A stretch of 35,890 nucleotides of DNA from Aquificaceae bacterium (GCA_027014155.1 JALWEG010000067.1:31950-67839), one strand, 5' to 3'. Counted from the first letter of the stretch, positions 2,140-31,927 are shown. The notes: generated by a model from the letters alone, not told the origin. Made by a program: numbers and translations.

Positions 2140-3243
2140 TCACATCGCTGAGGATTCTTTACCTTTAGATTGTGTGAGAGAGAGCAGAAATCTCTCATAT
2201 CTGTCGGCTATCCTGTCCCATGTGAAGTTTTTGGCGTATTTCAAAGCTCTTTTGGAAAGCTTTTCAAGCAAACCTCTTTGATTCCATAAAAGTTCTATCT
2301 TCTCCCTCAAATCTTCAGAATTTCCACTTCTGAAGGATATACCTATTCCTTCCTTAACTACATACTTTAGCTCTTCTATATCGCTAACCAATACAGGTTT
2401 TCCCTTAGAAGCTGCTTCAAGGACAACTATACCCTGCCCTTCATACCTGGAAGGCAAGACTAAGAACCTGCACCGTTCAATTAACTTAACTTTCTCTAAC
2501 TCGTCAACAAAACCGAGATACTTTACCTTGCTGGAAAGAGAAAAGCGACTATTCAAATTATTTTCTAACAATTTAGAATCTTTTCCTTTACCAACTATGA
2601 ATAGTTTTACATCAACATCTTCAACAGCTTTCAACAATACATCTAAACCTTTATTATAAAAATCAATTCTGCCAACGTATAAGATGTAGTCTCCTAAAGT
2701 TATCGTAGATGGTTCAACCAAATCCACACCATTAGGAATTATATCTATCTCTTTGAATCCAAATTTTCTTGCGGTTACTTCCGAGACACTTAGAATATTC
2801 AAAAATTTCTTTGGATATAACTGTTCTATTACATAGAACGGCAAGCCGAATATGGAATATCTTCTCAGTATTTCTTTATCATGCTTGTGATGAATCTGTA
2901 GAAGAGTTGGTATTTTATTTTGAAATTTATAAGAAAAAATCGGATTCCAAGGTGCAAAGTCTTCAACTACGATATCGTAGTCTCTGAAACGCTTTCTCAG
3001 AAATGCATGGGCGTAAAGTCCGTAAGATAGAACGCTAAGATAGTAAGACTTGGGCAGACCTAAGAACTTGTAGTATACGCCTTCTCTGAAACCTTCCATA
3101 GCTCCCGGATAGTTTCCGCATACCACTGTGGCGCTGTGGCCCTTCTTAGTTAAACGGCGGTAAAGCTCGTGCACCCTGACGGCACCCCCACCGCCTACCC
3201 AGGGGTTATCCACATGGTCGTATATAAAATGCAGGATTCTCAT
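2140..3243 (-). CDS. Glycosyltransferase family 4 (GT-B)
   Basis: A 367-aa protein of the usual size for GT4 enzymes, which move sugars from nucleotide donors to glycolipid or polysaccharide acceptors on the cytoplasmic membrane face. The N-terminal Rossmann half contains the glycine loop WVGGGGAVRVHEL near residue 20. The C-terminal half contains YVGRIDFYNKGLDVLLKA and the donor-site motif EGQGIVVLEAASKGKPV with the E-x7-E spacing. It is transcribed divergently from ilvB and is not part of either neighbouring operon. The middle of the gene is markedly AT-rich (53 of 180 bases G+C at 2521-2700 by my count), while its 5' end matches the surroundings. This suggests horizontal acquisition or a mosaic. 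Donor and acceptor are unknown. Confidence 0.9.
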   Translation of the reverse strand: MRILHFIYDHVDNPWVGGGGAVRVHELYRRLTKKGHSATVVCGNYPGAMEGFREGVYYKFLGLPKSYYLSVLSYGLYAHAFLRKRFRDYDIVVEDFAPWNPIFSYKFQNKIPTLLQIHHKHDKEILRRYSIFGLPFYVIEQLYPKKFLNILSVSEVTARKFGFKEIDIIPNGVDLVEPSTITLGDYILYVGRIDFYNKGLDVLLKAVEDVDVKLFIVGKGKDSKLLENNLNSRFSLSSKVKYLGFVDELEKVKLIERCRFLVLPSRYEGQGIVVLEAASKGKPVLVSDIEELKYVVKEGIGISFRSGNSEDLREKIELLWNQRGLLEKLSKRALKYAKNFTWDRIADRYERFLLSLTQSKGKESSAM

Positions 3244-5091: not shown

Positions 5092-5673
5092 ATGGCTGAC
5101 ACGGTAGGAGTAGAAGGAATCAAAGCGGTAAAGGCTCCCAGATTCAGAGAACTTAAGAAGGGAGAAACCCGCAAGCACATAATCAACGTCCTCGTAAGGA
5201 ACGAGCTGGGCGTTTTGGCAAGGATAGCCACCCTGATAGCCGGTAAAGGCTACAACATAGAAGGTCTCTCGGTGGGAGAGACCCACGAGAAGGGGCTCTC
5301 AAGGATGACCATAGAGGTAATAGGGGACGACATAGTTATAGACCAGGTAGTAAAACAGCTCAGGAAGCTGATAGACACCTTGAAGGTTAGAGACCTGACC
5401 GACGTACCCCACGTTGAGAGGGAGCTGGTTCTCGTTAAGGTTCACGCTCCCACCTCAAGGGCGAGGGACGAGATACTGCGAATAGTGGAGATATTTAGAG
5501 GTAAGGTGGTGGACGTATCACCCGAGACCTACACCATAGAGATAACGGGCGACGAAGATAAGATAAACGCATTTATAGAACTCCTAAAGCCCTTTGGTAT
5601 AAAAGAGCTGGCCAGAACGGGTAAAATAGCTATGAGAAGGGAACTATTCGTAGAAGAAAACCTACAGGAGTGA
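5092..5673 (+). CDS. ilvN: Acetolactate synthase, small (regulatory) subunit
   Basis: A 193-aa subunit that stimulates IlvB and confers feedback inhibition by valine. An ACT domain occupies about residues 22-95, recognised by the pattern [31 protein letters not shown] split across its first half. The C-terminal ALS_ss domain follows ([11 protein letters not shown]-type segment, then [19 protein letters not shown]). About 20 residues precede the ACT domain, a slightly longer N-terminus than usual. Shine-Dalgarno AGGAGG lies just before ATG 5092. The gene ends 5 bases before the Tat-signal protein gene, which may be read from the same mRNA. Confidence 0.96.
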
Positions 5674-5678
5674 GGGCT

Positions 5679-6290
5679 ATGGACAGAAGGAAGTTTTTGG
5701 GTCTGGCAGCTTTAAGTCTGCCTTTTGGAATTGCTCTTGCGGGAGGCAACAACTTCATAGTTCCGGATACAGTCAATCCGAGGCTTAGAATGGCACTCGG
5801 CGCGGCCGAGCTTATAAAGAGGAGGGGCATAAGAAAGGTGGCGGTCGTGTTTATGGAAGAGTCCCAGCTCTGCGCCATATTCGCCGCGGCTTTGGTGGTA
5901 GCGCTCAGGGATAGAGGTATAAAGAGCTGGTATCTGGAAGGAGGCAAGGGACTGGCAGAGCGCATAAAGGGAACCGGCACCGACTACGTATATATGGCTT
6001 ACTTTGGCGAGCTTCCCGAGGACAAGGTGCAGGAAGCTTTTGACACCGACCTGTTGGAACTTGCGGAATCTAAGCTGAAGGTAAACCTCATATTCCACCC
6101 CTCCACGGTATCCAAGGGCTTCGTTAACAACACCGTTTTTGACGAGACCGTAAGCTCTTACCTAAAATCCCTGAAGGGAGTTTACGCCGTAATAAGAAGG
6201 GACGATAACCTGCTCTTTGCGAAGGCCTCGGAGATTTCCGACTTGGGAATCTCCTTCAAGGAACTGATAAAGGTGAAGTATGGCCAGTAG
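5679..6290 (+). CDS. Tat-exported protein of unknown function
   Basis: A 203-aa product that begins with a twin-arginine signal: DRRKFLG, a hydrophobic run (LAALSLPFGIAL) and an Ala-x-Ala site near ALA-GG. It should be exported folded to the periplasm. The mature part alternates beta strands and helices (RKVAVVFMEESQLCAIFAAAL, KLKVNLIFHPSTVSKGF) and has no motif I recognise. ATG 5679 follows CAGGAG; an upstream GTG at 5670 would add only three residues before the signal. The stop lies 11 bases inside the next gene, indicating translational coupling to a membrane coiled-coil protein. A periplasmic sensor or ligand-binding role is possible but only inferred. Confidence 0.75.
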   Translation: MDRRKFLGLAALSLPFGIALAGGNNFIVPDTVNPRLRMALGAAELIKRRGIRKVAVVFMEESQLCAIFAAALVVALRDRGIKSWYLEGGKGLAERIKGTGTDYVYMAYFGELPEDKVQEAFDTDLLELAESKLKVNLIFHPSTVSKGFVNNTVFDETVSSYLKSLKGVYAVIRRDDNLLFAKASEISDLGISFKELIKVKYGQ

Positions 6291-6990
6291 CAGAAGTATA
6301 GAGATTCCGAGGAAGGCTTCTTTATCCGACGAGCTCGTGAAGTTCTTCTTCTTGAGTTCCACCTTCCTCTTTCTGTCTCTATGCGTGATACTTTACGGGT
6401 TGGGCGGAGTGGGCATGCTTTACTCCGTTGCCATATCCCTAATCGTATCCTTAGGGTGGACGTCTCTGCTACTTTACTGGCTTAAGGATAAACTTGAGAG
6501 AGTTTTGGGAAGAGTGGTTTACGTTATAGACCTCTTTGAGCAGTCAAGGTACGAAAAGGCCGTAGCCACCGTCCCCATATACGAAGAGATGCTGATAATA
6601 ATAGACAGCATAAAGGATATACTCGCCAGCGTGGAGAGCAAGTGCAGTAGAGAGATTAGCGAACTTCAGGAAGAGTTGGACGTGATTTCGGAAAACACCT
6701 CCAAGATTATAGAAGGCCTACAGCTCGTTGCCGAGGGCAACTTGAGGGCAGAGTTTCCCTCGGGCTTGGATTTAGCGGGAGCCATAGGACAGGCGGTCGG
6801 TCAGAGCCTTGCAGAGATAAGAAAAAGATTGCTTAAAGTCAAAGAGGACTTAGAACGCTTACACTCAAGGACTCAGAGCTTGGCCAAGAACTGTGAGTCA
6901 ATAAATGATAAATCACTAAAAGATGAGATATATAATATTCTCCAGGAAGAGGAGAAGATACTAAAGGAGCTGGGTTTTTTTAAATGTTGA
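6280..6990 (+). CDS. Two-TM, HAMP-like coiled-coil membrane protein
   Basis: A 236-aa protein. A short basic N-terminus is followed by TM1 (about 21-43) and TM2 (about 46-68). A long cytoplasmic part then has HAMP-like and heptad-repeat character (ESKCSREISELQEELDVI; IRKRLLKVKEDLERLHSR). The overall plan is that of a chemoreceptor or sensor stripped of its periplasmic domain and of the methyl-accepting hairpin. It starts 11 bases inside the Tat-protein gene with AAGGTG as Shine-Dalgarno, and is followed 30 bases later by the roadblock gene. I infer a membrane scaffold or signal transmitter for the downstream GTPase module. It is not a complete methyl-accepting protein. Confidence 0.7.
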   Translation: MASSRSIEIPRKASLSDELVKFFFLSSTFLFLSLCVILYGLGGVGMLYSVAISLIVSLGWTSLLLYWLKDKLERVLGRVVYVIDLFEQSRYEKAVATVPIYEEMLIIIDSIKDILASVESKCSREISELQEELDVISENTSKIIEGLQLVAEGNLRAEFPSGLDLAGAIGQAVGQSLAEIRKRLLKVKEDLERLHSRTQSLAKNCESINDKSLKDEIYNILQEEEKILKELGFFKC

Positions 6991-7020
6991 GGCTTTTGCG
7001 AGATAAGGGAGGTTTACATA

Positions 7021-7377
7021 ATGGATAGATACGAGGCCATACTGCAGGAGTTGATTAAGAGTTCCGGTTTGGAAGGTGCCGTGCTGGTGAGCGCCGACGG
7101 ACTACCCATATCCTCCGTTCTCAAGCCCGGGATAGAGGAGGACAGGGTGGCTGCCATGAGCGCCGCCATACTCTCCTTAGGGGAGAGGGTCGTGGAAGAG
7201 CTTCAGAAGGGAACCCTTGAACAGATATCTGTCAAGGGGGATAGTGGTTATATAATACTTACCGGGGTAGGAACGGAAGCGGTTCTAACCGTGCTGGCCG
7301 ACGTAAACGCCAAGCTGGGATTGCTTCTTATGGAGATAAGAAAGGCGCAGAAGGAACTTAAAGAAGCTATAGGTTGA
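7021..7377 (+). CDS. Roadblock/LC7 domain protein (MglB-like)
   Basis: A 118-aa single-domain protein. The roadblock fold is recognised from the N-terminal helix ILQELIKSSGLEGAVLVSADGLPISS, the central helix AAMSAAILSLGERVVEEL and the strand ISVKGDSGYIILTGVG. In bacteria such dimers (MglB of Myxococcus and Thermus) act as GTPase-activating or scaffolding partners of MglA-type small GTPases. A GTPase gene lies two genes downstream, which supports that pairing here. A strong GGGAGG Shine-Dalgarno precedes ATG 7021, and only 4 bases separate its stop from the PATAN gene. The exact partner and biological output are inferred. Confidence 0.9.
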   Translation: MDRYEAILQELIKSSGLEGAVLVSADGLPISSVLKPGIEEDRVAAMSAAILSLGERVVEELQKGTLEQISVKGDSGYIILTGVGTEAVLTVLADVNAKLGLLLMEIRKAQKELKEAIG

Positions 7378-7381
7378 TTAA

Positions 7382-8077
7382 ATGGCACTGACAGGGGATT
7401 TATCTGTATTCAACTTTGCGGACATACTCCAGGTTCTCGCTAAGGATAGAAAGAGCGGTGTTCTCTTAGTGGAGTGGAAGGACATAGTAATAGCCTACTA
7501 CATAAAAGATGGGGAGCTGGTATTCGCAAGGCCTGTGGACAAGGTCTTTCGCGTTTACACCGACAGGGACTTTGACAAGCTCTTAGACAAGCTCAGGATA
7601 AGGAAAGAGGACCTCCACAAGACTATAGATAAGTTCTTCCTCAGCAGGTTGGGCAACAAAGAGGGCATATTCTCCTTCACCCCCGGATTCATAAAGTACA
7701 ACTCCGACATACCGGTGTTCTATCCCGTGGAAGAGCTTATAATGAGGGCGTCGCGGGTCCTAACTCCCGAGGAGGTGGAGAGAAAGATATCCGACGAAAT
7801 GCTGATCTTTGAAAAGGATAAGAACTGGGAAAACATACTCTCTAAGGTTAAGCTTACAGAAGAAGAGAAAAAGGTTCTTGACCTCGTTGACGGGAACAGG
7901 AGCGTAGCGGACGTACGCAAGGCCGCCTCAGGACTTGATACGCTTACGGTGGACAGAGCACTCTACGGATTTCTCGCCACGGGAATACTCAGGCGGAAAA
8001 AGAAGGAAAGAACCCAAAGGCCTTCCATATCCCTTGACCTGCTCGCCAAGATAATAGAACGCATAAAGAAGCTTTAA
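7382..8077 (+). CDS. DUF4388 / PATAN domain protein with C-terminal winged helix
   Basis: A 231-aa protein. The first ~60 residues match the PATAN (DUF4388) start pattern: GDLSVFNFADILQVLAKDRKSGVLLVEW, then a strand and IKDGELVFARPV. The middle is helical. Residues about 160-215 (VLDLVDGNRSVADVRKAA through YGFLATGILRR) look like the small winged-helix segment often fused to this domain. The family is known mainly from bacterial gliding, cyanobacterial phototaxis (PatA, PixE) and chemosensory loci, as a protein-interaction module. It sits between the roadblock and GTPase genes, so it is likely an adaptor in the same pathway. Confidence 0.85.
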   Translation: MALTGDLSVFNFADILQVLAKDRKSGVLLVEWKDIVIAYYIKDGELVFARPVDKVFRVYTDRDFDKLLDKLRIRKEDLHKTIDKFFLSRLGNKEGIFSFTPGFIKYNSDIPVFYPVEELIMRASRVLTPEEVERKISDEMLIFEKDKNWENILSKVKLTEEEKKVLDLVDGNRSVADVRKAASGLDTLTVDRALYGFLATGILRRKKKERTQRPSISLDLLAKIIERIKKL

Positions 8078-8094
8078 AAATCTGACGGGGAGCT

Positions 8095-8640
8095 ATGAAG
8101 ACGATAAAGAAGATAAAGATAGTTGTAGCCGGACCCTTTGCTGCCGGCAAAACCCAGTTCATAAACACGGTCAGCGATATAAAGACCGTGGCCACGGAAA
8201 GAAAGACCACCGCCAAGGGAGAGAAGGAGGTAAAACACCAAACCACCGTGGCCATGGATTTCGGAAAGATAAGGATAGACGACGAGCATGAGCTTTATCT
8301 CTTCGGAACCCCCGGCCAGTCCAGATTTGACTTCATGTGGGAAATCTTAGGAGAGGGAGCCTTAGGGATAATAATCTTGGTGGACAGCACCGACCCGAAA
8401 ACCTTTCACGAGGCCAGAAGGATTATCAACTTCTTCCAGTCAAGGTTCCCCGTTCCCATCGTGGTAGGCGCAAATAAACAAGACTTGCCCAACGCTTGGT
8501 CTGCTGACGACATAAGTTTCGCCTTAGACATATCGGAAGACGAAGGAATACCGGTTATACCTTTGTCCGCCAAGAACAAAGAGGACGTCAAAAGGGTGCT
8601 CCTCACGCTGCTCCAGATAATACGCGAATATATTTCTTAA
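8095..8640 (+). CDS. MglA/COG2229-type small GTPase
   Basis: A 181-aa Ras-like GTPase. P-loop GPFAAGKT is at 13-20. G3 reads FGTPGQ at 70-75, where the usual DxxG aspartate is replaced by Gly, a trait of the bacterial COG2229/MglA group. G4 NKQD is at 127-130 and G5 SAK at 158-160. There is no membrane anchor. MglA-type GTPases set cell polarity and control type IV pili or gliding, with roadblock proteins as their GAPs. It closes the cassette that begins at the Tat-exported protein, 17 bases after the PATAN gene. The closest functional assignment (polarity or motility switch) is inference. Confidence 0.92.
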   Translation: MKTIKKIKIVVAGPFAAGKTQFINTVSDIKTVATERKTTAKGEKEVKHQTTVAMDFGKIRIDDEHELYLFGTPGQSRFDFMWEILGEGALGIIILVDSTDPKTFHEARRIINFFQSRFPVPIVVGANKQDLPNAWSADDISFALDISEDEGIPVIPLSAKNKEDVKRVLLTLLQIIREYIS

Positions 8641-27309: not shown

Positions 27310-28210
27310 CTGGCCTACCCCTTGAGGAGCTCAGCAGCGCTATTACCATGCCTACAACGTTCTGGGAGAGGCTGAACACGGCGGAAGGTAGGGAAGCTGC
27401 CAGGGAAAAGTGTTTGACGGCGAGCACCGCCGACAGACCCGAGTTCTGCATTCCCACCTCTATGGCCAAGGTCTTCCTCATGGCCGGATTCATTCCTACG
27501 GCCTTTCCCAGAAGGTAGCCGAGGGCAAAGCCCAGAAGGTTGTGAACCAGAACACCCACCAGCACCGACAGAGAGATGCTCGCAAGCCTTTCCGAGTTCA
27601 GAGCGAATATCACCGCTATTATGAATCCTATCGCCAGAACCGAAACGAAGGGAAGTAGGGGTTCCACCCGCCGAACCCTCTCACCCGCAAAGGCCCTAAG
27701 TGCCATTCCCAGAAGGACGGGAAGGATTACTATCTTTGCCGTTGATAGAATCATAGGAAGGAGAGGGACGTGAACCATCTTTCCCACCAAGAACCAAGTC
27801 CAGAGGGGAGTAAATAAGGGAGAGAGCATGGTGGACAGAGTGGTCATGGAGATTGAATAGGCCAGCACACCCCCCGAGAGGTAGGTTATCAGGTTGGAAG
27901 CGGTGCCCCCCGGAGCGGAACCCACGAGGACGAAGCCGGTAATGGTGTCCTTATCCATATCCAAAACGAAGGCTACGGCGAACCCGGCCAAGGGCATGAT
28001 GGAGTACTGGAGCAAGGCTCCGTAGAGTACGGGGTAGGGCCTGGTCAGTATTCTCTTAAAGTCTTCCAAGGTAAGCGTCAATCCCATACTCAGCATTATC
28101 AGAGTGAGCAGTGGAATTATCAGGCTTCTGAACTCCCTTAGCTCAGCCGGGAAGACGAGTCCGGTCAGCGATACGGCCAAGAGAAGTATAAACAGGTAGG
28201 TCTCTCTCAT
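27302..28210 (-). CDS. Bile acid:sodium symporter (BASS) family transporter
   Basis: 302 aa, nine or ten hydrophobic helices. BASS-type motifs are MGLTLTLEDFKRIL near residue 42, GFVLVGSAPGGTASNLITYLSGG near 90-112 and IEVGMQNSGLSAVLAVKHF near the C-terminus. Family members carry organic anions (bile acids, pyruvate, pantothenate, arsenite in related groups) with sodium. I start at ATG 28210, coupled to the gspF stop in an ATGA; an open upstream extension lies inside gspF. Substrate unknown. Confidence 0.9.
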   Translation of the reverse strand: MRETYLFILLLAVSLTGLVFPAELREFRSLIIPLLTLIMLSMGLTLTLEDFKRILTRPYPVLYGALLQYSIMPLAGFAVAFVLDMDKDTITGFVLVGSAPGGTASNLITYLSGGVLAYSISMTTLSTMLSPLFTPLWTWFLVGKMVHVPLLPMILSTAKIVILPVLLGMALRAFAGERVRRVEPLLPFVSVLAIGFIIAVIFALNSERLASISLSVLVGVLVHNLLGFALGYLLGKAVGMNPAMRKTLAIEVGMQNSGLSAVLAVKHFSLAASLPSAVFSLSQNVVGMVIALLSSSRGRPDD

Positions 28211-29403
28211 CTCTTGCCTACGGAAGAGGTTATCTCCGTTATCGGGAGCAGGACGCTCAGGACTATTATGGCCACCACGGCTCCTATCACCAGCATGGTG
28301 ATGGGCTCTATCATTCTCGTCCACAGGCTTATGGCCTTTAATGCCTCCTTTCTGTATATCTCTCGGGATAGGCTAAGCATCTTCTCAAGCTCCCCGCTGG
28401 ACTCTCCGGTCTCCACCAGGTTGACGAACAGGGGAGGAAAGACCTTCGCCTCTTTGAGGAGCCAAGTCAGGCTCCTGCCCTTGCCCAGCTCTTCCAAGTG
28501 CTCTCTGAGAAGCCTTTGCATGTAAGCGTTGGATAGACTGTCGGTGCTTACCTTGACCGCCTCGGTTATGGGTGCGGCGGAACCGAGCATCATGTGCAGT
28601 ACGCCGGCAAATCGGGAGAGGTTAAAGTAAAGGTTTACCTTACCTACCACCGGAAGCTTTAAGATGAATCTGTCTATAGCCTCCTTGCTTATGCGTTTCC
28701 TAAACACCAAGGCGAGTAGGAGTAGAAAGGGAGAGGCGTAAAGGGTGTATGTAATCGCGTCCGCCATCAGTAGTATGAACTTGGTGATGGTGGGCAACTC
28801 CTTCCCGAATCCCTCAAGTACGCTGGCTATCCTGGGAACGACGAACTTTACCGAAACCATAACGGCCAGGAAGCTCAGAGTTATGACGAAGGCCGGATAC
28901 ATAAGGGCGTTCATCAGTTTGGACTTCATATCAGCGAGGGTTTCCAGGTAATGTCCGACAGACTCAAGCACCTCTTCCAAGTTTTCCGCCGTCTCCGCGC
29001 TCGCCAATGTGTGGGGTACGAACTCCGGGAATATATCGCTCTCGGCAAAGGCAGAGGCAACGCTCTTGCCCTTTTCCAGCTTCGTCTTTATCTCTTCAAG
29101 GGCACGGGAGATTAACGGGTTCTCCACTTGGGAGGAAAGCAAACCTACGGCCGTGGGCAGAGGAATGCCCGCCCTGAGCATCGTTGAGAGCTGAATGAAT
29201 ACAAAGGCCAGGTCCTCGTAAGATACACCCCTACCGAGGCGTAGCTCAAAGAGGGAGAGCTTTCCTTTGACCGGAGAGACGGAAACGGGAACTATGCCTT
29301 CTTCCTTCAGCTCCCTGAGCAGCTCGGCTCTGGATTTGGCCTCTCTCTTACCCTTTACCTTCCTTCCGTCCTGCCTTACACCCTCGTAGAGGAACTCTTG
29401 CAT
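28207..29403 (-). CDS. gspF: Type II secretion / type IV pilus inner-membrane protein GspF/PilC
   Basis: 398 aa with two T2SSF domains and three membrane spans. The N-terminus EFLYEGVRQDGRKVKGKREA is typical. Domain 1 has FVFIQLSTMLRAGIPLPTAV and domain 2 the repeat FAGVLHMMLGSAAPITEAV. NLVETGESSGELEKML precedes the last membrane helix. It is the platform protein that couples the assembly ATPase to pseudopilin or pilin assembly. ATG 29403 overlaps the gspK stop by one base; a GTG at 29406 would add one residue. The ATPase and secretin genes are not in the window. Confidence 0.95.
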   Translation of the reverse strand: MQEFLYEGVRQDGRKVKGKREAKSRAELLRELKEEGIVPVSVSPVKGKLSLFELRLGRGVSYEDLAFVFIQLSTMLRAGIPLPTAVGLLSSQVENPLISRALEEIKTKLEKGKSVASAFAESDIFPEFVPHTLASAETAENLEEVLESVGHYLETLADMKSKLMNALMYPAFVITLSFLAVMVSVKFVVPRIASVLEGFGKELPTITKFILLMADAITYTLYASPFLLLLALVFRKRISKEAIDRFILKLPVVGKVNLYFNLSRFAGVLHMMLGSAAPITEAVKVSTDSLSNAYMQRLLREHLEELGKGRSLTWLLKEAKVFPPLFVNLVETGESSGELEKMLSLSREIYRKEALKAISLWTRMIEPITMLVIGAVVAIIVLSVLLPITEITSSVGKR

Positions 29404-30257
29404 CACGTGAGCTCTTTGTAGAGTATTCTCCTGACCTGCCTGTCGTATATAACCTCCATTCTGGACTCTACATCCCCTATCTTTATCTTAATCTCTATAT
29501 GGAAGACCCGACTTCTAACATCAATTATATTCTGGAACTTGCTGAGCATATCAAAGGTCATACCCTCAACCAGAACAAGGTCTTGAACCTTCCTAAAGGA
29601 GTTCTTGCCCCTGTAGGATATTATCCTGTCTGCCAGACTCTCATCTATTGAAGGGTGCAGAGCCATGAGCACGTGTTTGGGAGCAGTGTTTATATTTATC
29701 TTGCCCGAAGAGTAAACGCTCGTCAGGTCGTAGAGTCCGGGCAGGAACTCGTCTCCTAAGAGCCTACCGGTCAGATACTCTTTGGACATTCCCAAGTACT
29801 CCAGCTCGTGCTTGCTGTCCATAGGCTTCCTCTTTATGGGATACTCGGTGTTGAACTCGCCCGGCATCGCTCCTATCCATATCTTCAACCTCTCAAGGTA
29901 GTCGTACTCTATGTTAAGAAGCTCAAAGAGCCTTTGCACCACCGCCTCGTACTGGGGTTGCCTGAGCATATTGAGGTTTATGAACCTGTCCTCGTCGTAT
30001 ATGGATACCTCAAGGGTTCCCTTTTCGGTCTCTATGGTCAGTGGAAAGGCCCAGGGGTCGTGTAGGGTATCCACGTTAGAGCTCTCCATAGCAAGGGCGT
30101 TAAGAACCATAGGCAGTATGGATACCAAGGCGTGGGTCGCCTGCTGCTTTTTGTAAATTTCCTCAACAAACCTTCCGGTGGTGCTGGCGCTTTGAAAAGA
30201 AGAGACCACGTATCCGGACAGAGCCAAGAAGAAGGCCAAAGCCACCAATATAGCCAT
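29403..30257 (-). CDS. gspK: GspK-like minor pseudopilin (type II secretion)
   Basis: 284 aa. The GspK pattern is clear after the N-terminal helix: DPWAFP (67-72), DEDRFINLNML (89-98), and the helix-hairpin-helix-like GKININTAPKHVL (185-197) followed by SYRGKNSFRKVQDL. GspK caps the pseudopilus tip with GspI/J. Oddly the frame opens directly with the hydrophobic helix MAILVALAFFLALSG. There is no basic leader or Gly cleavage site, and the codons upstream offer none before a stop. The start overlaps the preceding gene by one base (TAATG). Companion pseudopilins are absent here. Confidence 0.85.
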   Translation of the reverse strand: MAILVALAFFLALSGYVVSSFQSASTTGRFVEEIYKKQQATHALVSILPMVLNALAMESSNVDTLHDPWAFPLTIETEKGTLEVSIYDEDRFINLNMLRQPQYEAVVQRLFELLNIEYDYLERLKIWIGAMPGEFNTEYPIKRKPMDSKHELEYLGMSKEYLTGRLLGDEFLPGLYDLTSVYSSGKININTAPKHVLMALHPSIDESLADRIISYRGKNSFRKVQDLVLVEGMTFDMLSKFQNIIDVRSRVFHIEIKIKIGDVESRMEVIYDRQVRRILYKELT

Positions 30258-31927
30258 TAAAAGGGTGGAATGAATACATTATGTAAGGCGAACTTCTCCA
30301 ACACCTTTAGCTTTGAGTAAGGTTTCATATCGGAGCTTACCACTTGACCCACAATCATTCCTACGAGGGACTCTGACTGCACGAGCACCTCCTCAACTTT
30401 ACCTTCCTTGATATAGACGAAGGCTTCCACGTACTCCTCAAATTTCTCTCTTTGCTCCGTTTCCAAGGAGTCAAGTATATCCTGAAGTATTCCCTTGAGC
30501 GTATCCGAGTCCGGTAGCGAGAGGTCGTGTCCCAGTCCGTTTCCGGATATCTCCGTAAGCAACTGCAGATTGCTGGGTGCGTGTCCGTACATGGGATACA
30601 CCTCTTTAAAGCTCAACTCCCTAAGCTCCGCCAAGGCCTTAGAAACCACCAAAGAGGAGGGCATGTAAACCCGGTGATATAGAGCTGCAAGTTTCTGCAC
30701 ATCTTCATCTCGGATATTGGCACTGAAAGAGCTTCCCAGCTCCGGCGTAAAGACGCAGGACAGCTCCTCATCAAAGAGAGCTAAACCTCCAGGATAGGGA
30801 GTGTGATGCACCGGTACGAACCTGAGCCTGTGCCCCGTCATAAGATTCATCATGCTGAAGGCCGAGTTGTCCACCACCTTGACCCTCAGACCGGCCATGC
30901 CCATACGGGCAAAGATGTCGCTCACGTAAGAAGAGGTTATCACGTAGAGGCGGGGGTTTTCCTGATAAAGCTTGGATACGTTGAAGAGGGTTCTAACGTC
31001 CGGAGAAAGAACCACCACTGCCGACAGAGCTCCCACTCCGCCGATGACCTCCTCTAAGAATCTCTTAATCTCCTCCCAGCTGTCGGCACCCCCGGCGTTT
31101 ATTAGGAAGTTCAGGCTGCTCTCTTTACCTTCAAACACCCTGAGATAGTAGTTCCTTTTAGTCAGCTTTCTCTCATCAAAAACGCTGAGGAGGTGAAGGC
31201 TATCCCCAAAAGATACCGTTTGAACTCTATCAAGAACTTCCCCTTCACCTTCAGAAGCTCCTACCTCAACCGAGGTGGCTACACCTGCAGGTTGGACTTC
31301 TCCCAGAAGCATCTGCAGGAATTCCTGAGTGCTTTTGAACTCCTCCACCGGATCCTTTATCTGAGCAAAGGGAGCCACCTCTATATACAAACTTCTCTCT
31401 GCGAGCTTTTCTTTCAAAATTTCAATACCGCAGCTCATAGCCTTGAGCATGCCTTTCTCAATACAGGCTTCACACTTCCACTCTCCGTCCTTCAGCACCA
31501 AATTGAAGCTCTTTCCCTTCCTGCTGGCACTTATGGCTATGTTCACTATTCCATAAAGGTTCAGGTCTCTTTCTACCTCCAGCTTCTCAAGCATAACCAG
31601 CTTGTTTAAAAGCTCCAGAGGGTTGAAGGGCTTTACAACCGTATTCAGTTCTGAAAATCCTAAGGATATAAGAAAATCCATCTGCCCTTGGGTATCGCAT
31701 ATGAAGAAGGGAACTACTATTCTTCCTTCAGAAAGCATGTTGTTGCGCCAAACTTCCAGTTCGTCTGCCGGCAGTATAAAAACGTCAACTCTAACCTGGC
31801 TCAGAAACTTACTTACGCTCTCTTCGTCGGGAGCCACCATAAGCATGTGTCCCGTGACGTCAAATATGTCCCCCAAGAGGTCAAAAACTTCCCTGTTCTT
31901 GTCGTAAAGGATAGCTTTCAAAGACAT
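30257..31927 (-). CDS. Fusion of pseudo-receiver, PATAN-like and degenerate flavodiiron-type beta-lactamase domains
   Basis: 556 aa, no membrane helix. Residues 1-110 look like a response-regulator receiver (AILYDKNREVFDLLG; VVKPF at 97-101), but the phosphoacceptor position reads Pro53, so phosphorylation is unlikely. Residues ~120-190 faintly resemble the PATAN/DUF4388 domain. Residues ~235-455 follow the flavodiiron-protein beta-lactamase (ODP) order: LNFLINAGG, ITSSY, FVPVHHTPYPGG (371-381), CVFTPELGSS and YPMYGHAP. The metal-binding HxExDH is replaced by LSPDVRT (307-313). One His survives in HH and Glu takes the Asp place, so iron binding is doubtful. It is coupled to gspK by one base. 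A sensor or regulator of the secretion/pilus machine is inferred. Confidence 0.7.
   Translation of the reverse strand: MSLKAILYDKNREVFDLLGDIFDVTGHMLMVAPDEESVSKFLSQVRVDVFILPADELEVWRNNMLSEGRIVVPFFICDTQGQMDFLISLGFSELNTVVKPFNPLELLNKLVMLEKLEVERDLNLYGIVNIAISASRKGKSFNLVLKDGEWKCEACIEKGMLKAMSCGIEILKEKLAERSLYIEVAPFAQIKDPVEEFKSTQEFLQMLLGEVQPAGVATSVEVGASEGEGEVLDRVQTVSFGDSLHLLSVFDERKLTKRNYYLRVFEGKESSLNFLINAGGADSWEEIKRFLEEVIGGVGALSAVVVLSPDVRTLFNVSKLYQENPRLYVITSSYVSDIFARMGMAGLRVKVVDNSAFSMMNLMTGHRLRFVPVHHTPYPGGLALFDEELSCVFTPELGSSFSANIRDEDVQKLAALYHRVYMPSSLVVSKALAELRELSFKEVYPMYGHAPSNLQLLTEISGNGLGHDLSLPDSDTLKGILQDILDSLETEQREKFEEYVEAFVYIKEGKVEEVLVQSESLVGMIVGQVVSSDMKPYSKLKVLEKFALHNVFIPPF

Follow-up and report, generated by a model that had tools for sequence, protein, structure and literature searches.

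The window analysed here is a 35,890-nt stretch of an Aquificaceae-type genome (G000, contig C67, 31950–67839), and the region under study occupies positions 5679–8640 of its plus strand. An earlier, sequence-only reading had proposed five co-directional genes, and all five open reading frames are present on that strand (Table 1). The gaps between them, from gene 1 to gene 5, are -11, 30, 4 and 17 bp, the first being an 11-bp overlap of the membrane-protein ORF with the gene for the exported protein. ilvB-ilvN lies directly 5′ of the cassette and rplN starts 120 bp 3′ of it. The number of terminator-like sites here does not exceed that in shuffled sequence, and a promoter scan gave no clear excess over shuffles. 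Elsewhere in the window, a glycosyltransferase gene (2140–3243, minus strand) coincides with a dip in G+C content (0.37 against about 0.50) and was possibly acquired.

Table 1. Genes of the cassette, in positions of the window
Feature	Position	Strand	Evidence
Exported protein, twin-arginine leader	5679..6290	+	ORF; leader MDRRKFLGLAALSLPFGIALA
Membrane protein, two TM helices and coiled coil	6280..6990	+	ORF, alignment, AF2 model
Roadblock/LC7 (MglB-family) protein, putative GAP	7021..7377	+	Pfam Robl_LC7 E=5.3e-21; PDB relatives
PATAN (DUF4388) protein	7382..8077	+	Pfam DUF4388 E=1.7e-20
Small Ras-like GTPase	8095..8640	+	Pfam/NCBIfam: Ras, ATP_bind_1, TIGR00231 small_GTP

The exported and membrane proteins reach no curated family cut-off in a Pfam/NCBIfam search, and the roadblock/LC7 and PATAN identities first proposed by eye are borne out by Pfam. 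The roadblock protein has relatives in the PDB down to 2e-25, and its segment VSADGLPISS contains the Asp-Gly pair of the MglB partners of Groups 2–5. The PATAN protein passes the curated DUF4388 cut-off over residues 4–128 (73.7 bits against 25). Its C terminus is basic in the alignment, with a weak match of positions 159–202 to Z-alpha winged helices (E=0.003). We assign it a putative role as effector/adaptor or as exchange factor; binding of PATAN domains to PilB has been reported (Han et al. 2022, cited in PMC10519157).

The GTPase harbours the motifs GPFAAGKT (G1), TTVAMD (G2), FGTPGQ (G3) and NKQD (G4), which are intact and nearly invariant among its aligned relatives. Within the MglA family, Group 1 is defined by TVPGQ in G3 and an intrinsic arginine beside the G2 threonine, and Group 5 by GTPGQ in G3, a threonine replacing the arginine in G2 and [NT]KxD in G4 (PMC4316618). 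The window GTPase and its relatives have FGTPGQ rather than TVPGQ, and the window GTPase has TTVAMD where a paralogue on contig C23 has RT; GTPGQ, TTVAMD and NKQD all agree with Group 5. Judged by its motifs, the enzyme fits Groups 2–5 and, by the G4 motif and the phylum, probably Group 5, members of which have been reported from Aquificae (PMC4316618). The term 'MglA-like' used in the sequence-only reading is thus acceptable in the broad family sense only, given GTPGQ and the replaced G2 arginine, and the accompanying label of a polarity switch disagrees with the published Group 1 features; MglA-type GTPases are encoded elsewhere in the same genome. A canonical MglA/MglB pair, with this GTPase as the organism's MglA setting front-rear polarity for motility, would explain why a roadblock gene adjoins a Ras-like GTPase gene in a genome with pilus genes. 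It is nevertheless very unlikely, in view of the G3 and G2 residues, of the true MglA-type GTPases on contigs C23 and C4, and of the best 60 PDB matches of the window GTPase, which include no MglA chain.

We surveyed gene order in 121 Aquificota genomes (families f1–f3, genera g1 etc. and the like are labels of this survey). The strength of linkage differs sharply among the five genes: four are ordered far beyond chance, and the Tat gene is weakly linked. Cassette-type GTPases occur in 83 genomes, in families f1 to f3, with the PATAN gene directly 5′ of the GTPase gene at all 83 loci and the roadblock gene directly 5′ of PATAN at 75. The remaining eight loci belong to seven f3 genomes and to G101, a fragmentary genome of f1; at two of the f3 loci (L111 in G067, L112 in G070) the roadblock gene is detached from the PATAN-GTPase pair and sits after fliI and flgD. 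The membrane-protein gene is found in 24 genomes (Aquificaceae genera g1, g7, g8 and g9), directly 5′ of the roadblock gene in every one. The conserved co-occurrence anticipated for the whole set therefore holds for these four genes, but not for the Tat gene, which adjoins in 5 of 20 genomes. Since half of the Aquificaceae cassettes (g2–g5) have no adjoining membrane-protein gene, the membrane partner is not obligatory. When GTDB contigs were scanned with the PATAN alignment, 57 loci came up, almost all of them under the label Aquificota; the two labelled otherwise align like Aquificota copies and were treated as mislabelled bins, so that at this sensitivity no broader distribution was apparent.

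The membrane protein was correctly described as a two-TM coiled-coil protein: sequence, alignment and AF2 model agree on two TM helices, a short loop and a long cytoplasmic coiled coil. The model (mean pLDDT 72, a modest value) has helices at residues 15–40, 46–91, 100–154, 165–203 and 210–235, and the break at 155–164 covers a conserved HAMP-like interruption of the coiled coil, G...P.GLD..GA.G (G153...P160-G162-L163-D164...G167-A168-G170). Foldseek returned no significant match to this model, and the protein has neither a kinase domain, with no curated family over cut-off, nor a Pfam HAMP match. A profile comparison with HAMP (HHalign, 75%, score 30.3, against a maximum of 18.6 for shuffles and 25.9 for the reversed alignment) is no more than suggestive of a HAMP nature. 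In Hydrogenothermaceae (Persephonella, Sulfurihydrogenibium and similar), a 2-TM protein of about 129 aa with a clear Pfam HAMP domain (PF00672, E=4.1e-11) is encoded upstream of the same core, followed by an acidic protein of mostly 310–380 aa and then directly by the roadblock protein; by our own reading of the search output, at least 21 of the 27 genomes of this family have HAMP matches at the cassette. A membrane partner thus recurs near the core in two families. Homology between the two membrane proteins was considered and is not established, the full-length comparison being weak and the HAMP score near the reversed control. The envelope-to-GTPase link of the sequence-only reading finds support in gene order as far as the membrane protein is concerned, which where present always adjoins the core and has a similarly placed HAMP counterpart in another family; for the Tat protein it finds none.

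The gene for the exported protein begins with ATG at 5679, an alternative GTG lying at 5670. Its leader has, by eye, the twin arginine, hydrophobic stretch and AxA-like site of a Tat substrate, in keeping with the Tat-type leader originally claimed and predicting export, and the RR leader is kept in four full-length g1 and g9 copies in the alignment. Aligned relatives from g2, g4 and g5 are located elsewhere, and their leaders lack RR and look Sec-like by eye. Altogether, homologues occur in 20 genomes; a membrane-protein gene adjoins in only five of them, from g1 and g9, the other 15 copies being located elsewhere, and 19 of the 24 membrane-protein genes have no adjoining Tat gene. At five g2 loci examined (L072, L074, L075, L076 and L078) the relative is followed by a gene of an ApbE cluster, assigned from two scanned members that are ApbE (flavin transferase), which hints at a periplasmic redox role. 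Sequence searches of PDB and Pfam gave nothing significant for this family, and in the AF2 model (pLDDT 89) the fold is similar to a single lobe of type-I periplasmic binding proteins (best Foldseek PDB match E 5.6e-6, TMq about 0.5).

Could the Tat protein be the true sensor, binding a ligand and docking on a sensor-less TM protein in a relay from periplasm through membrane to cytoplasm? The overlapping genes, the adjacency kept in two genera, the RR leaders of the copies beside the cassette and the binding-protein-like fold are compatible with such a role, as is the presence of accessory proteins with the sensor-less CvnA kinases of conservons (PMC13343842). However, those conservon accessories are GAF or cytochrome P450 proteins; the model is a single lobe with no known ligand; 19 of 24 membrane-protein genes do without a Tat neighbour; and 15 of 20 homologues reside elsewhere, the five g2 loci before apbE suggesting another periplasmic role. 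We consider this relay distinctly improbable. Gene order speaks rather for a passenger role, and we view the protein as an optional accessory at most, a lineage-specific neighbour that is mostly a local passenger. In most genomes it is no neighbour of the GTPase (adjoining in 5 of 20, with an apbE partner in another genus), which is the observation that the sequence-only reading had itself named as speaking against its proposal; it does not apply to the membrane protein. Alternatively, both the Tat and the membrane-protein genes could be an operon accident, carried along behind ilvBN in the scrambled operons of Aquificales and playing no part in GTPase function. The cassette does follow ilvN, a gene of an unrelated pathway, in g1, g7 and g9, and the Tat gene is easily lost. 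Nonetheless, the membrane-protein gene stays with the roadblock gene in 24 of 24 genomes, even in g8, which has no ilvN upstream of the cassette, and in another family the core has a companion of a different sort, a 2-TM HAMP protein. We consider such an accident unlikely.

In Groups 1 and 5, PATAN, MglB and GTPase genes have been reported to be neighbours occasionally (Wuichet and Sogaard-Andersen 2014, PMC4316618), and the triad is traced there to Makarova 2006. The statement that no system with this gene set had been described was therefore too broad as regards the triad; it stands for the membrane partner, of which we found no description in the literature searched. The cassette shares protein types, group motifs and phylum with Group 5 as published, and differs in a nearly invariant triad order and in a recurrent membrane partner unmentioned in that work. 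With the actinobacterial conservons (AGPS, CvnA-B-C-D) it shares the order of membrane protein, roadblock, third small protein and GTPase, a GTPase of GTPGQ type, and accessory proteins beside sensor-less membrane partners. It departs from them in having no histidine-kinase-like CvnA, in placing PATAN where conservons have CvnC, and in a G4 of NKQD (NKxD) instead of the NxFD of the conservon Group 2 GTPases. In those systems the roadblock protein is described as a GAP and the CvnC homologue as a likely GEF (PMC13343842). The Myxococcus and Thermus MglA-MglB systems (Group 1) likewise combine roadblock and Ras-like GTPase, whereas the cassette GTPase has no TVPGQ and arginine signature and coexists with separate MglA-type genes. 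Lastly, PixG, PilG and TaxP2 of Synechocystis contain a PATAN domain, with a reported contact to the pilus motor PilB; unlike them, the cassette protein has no receiver domain that we could find and is paired with roadblock and GTPase.

Paralogous modules in Aquificota support the broader notion of HAMP receptors giving input to roadblock/GTPase modules in this phylum. The C23 paralogue, which matches Thermus MglA at 2.6e-37, is encoded in G000 (L051:2369-4897) with a 362-aa protein that has no Pfam match and a TM-Tll0287-TM-HAMP receptor. This receptor gene lies downstream of the MglA-type gene, and its product has a periplasmic sensor with a CxxCH motif and ends just after HAMP. Receptor and paralogous GTPase are no more than 3 kb apart at 21 of the 24 loci with a TM-Tll0287-TM-HAMP receptor. 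A third GTPase of the same genome, also MglA-type, is found with a DUF4388-domain gene beside pilT (C4, L253:7006-9011), in what we read as a pilB-pilT-pilC run, pilB and pilC being named by likeness. In genome G029, one roadblock-MglA pair lies between two HAMP receptors, both of which have a partner protein of their own, the partners having a common C-terminal domain (L254:5578-11001). The same genome has tandem pairs of 2-TM HAMP-only proteins (L251:4718-6201 and L252:4611-6054), and behind each pair comes a small protein that has the same C-terminal domain; one of the arrays diverges from rplN and the other converges on a gspE/pilB-ATPase-like gene.

A fixed three-gene switch that often stands directly behind a small membrane protein suggests kinase-free envelope control of a G protein. 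From sequence, gene order and motifs we infer a series of functional steps, in which the membrane protein would dimerise and its coiled-coil/HAMP-like segment would pass the state of the envelope to the roadblock dimer, which would serve the Group 5 GTPase as its GAP. The GTP state would be relayed by the PATAN protein, as effector/adaptor or as an exchange factor like CvnC, to a type IV pilus or a type II secretion machine, at the level of its inner-membrane/ATPase part; the Tat protein would be an optional accessory at most. Our leading reading, to which we give a little less than an even chance, is that the cassette is a kinase-free, membrane-coupled, conservon-like signalling module of the bacterial Ras type. 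Signal input to bacterial Ras-like GTPases is poorly known, the input half of conservons being largely unresolved, and here a compact core, widespread in Aquificaceae and Hydrogenothermaceae, lies repeatedly near a small kinase-less membrane protein. The direct action of HAMP-type helices on a roadblock GAP becomes a testable question, and the thermophile origin of the proteins should make reconstitution and structural work practical.

As to output, a type IV pilus or type II secretion machine is the likely target. We favour its control because of two gene-order links and the PATAN-PilB report. First, in the seven g9 (Aquifex-type) genomes a gspL/pilM-like gene directly follows the GTPase gene (7 of 7, usually with a 4-bp overlap), and a small gspM-like gene follows wherever the contig was read; this adjacency is restricted to the one genus. 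Second, in a Hydrogenobacter-type genome (G032, L153:5351-12246) the paralogous module of MglA, roadblock and HAMP receptor runs directly into gspE-gspL-gspM-gspK on one strand. PilT is found in 120 of 121 genomes, and pilT thus occurs with and without the core, so phylogenetic profiling lends no support to a pilus output. A flagellar output was rejected as the general role, as the core is kept without FliG (for example in all five g5 genomes) and is missing in g6, g17 and g20 despite FliG. A transcriptional output, with the winged-helix-like C-terminal domain of the PATAN protein binding DNA and the GTPase controlling gene expression, would suit the basic C terminus and the weak winged-helix match, and conservon systems change gene expression (PMC8510531 and PMC13343842). 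Against this, the match is marginal (E=0.003), winged-helix folds bind proteins too, and the gene-order links point to secretion/pilus components; we hold transcriptional control to be unlikely as well. On the pilus/secretion reading, a further proposal is that HAMP or HAMP-like helices in Aquificota act directly, kinase-free, on roadblock/GTPase complexes and in this way gate the motors of pili or type II secretion. This is a possibility we rate as doubtful; if true, it would give HAMP domains an output other than kinases and chemoreceptors. Also in the window (28207–31927, minus strand), GspF and GspK genes adjoin the gene for a 556-aa protein with an ODP domain (oxygen-binding di-iron, beta-lactamase fold), the N-terminal region of which looks receiver-like by eye.
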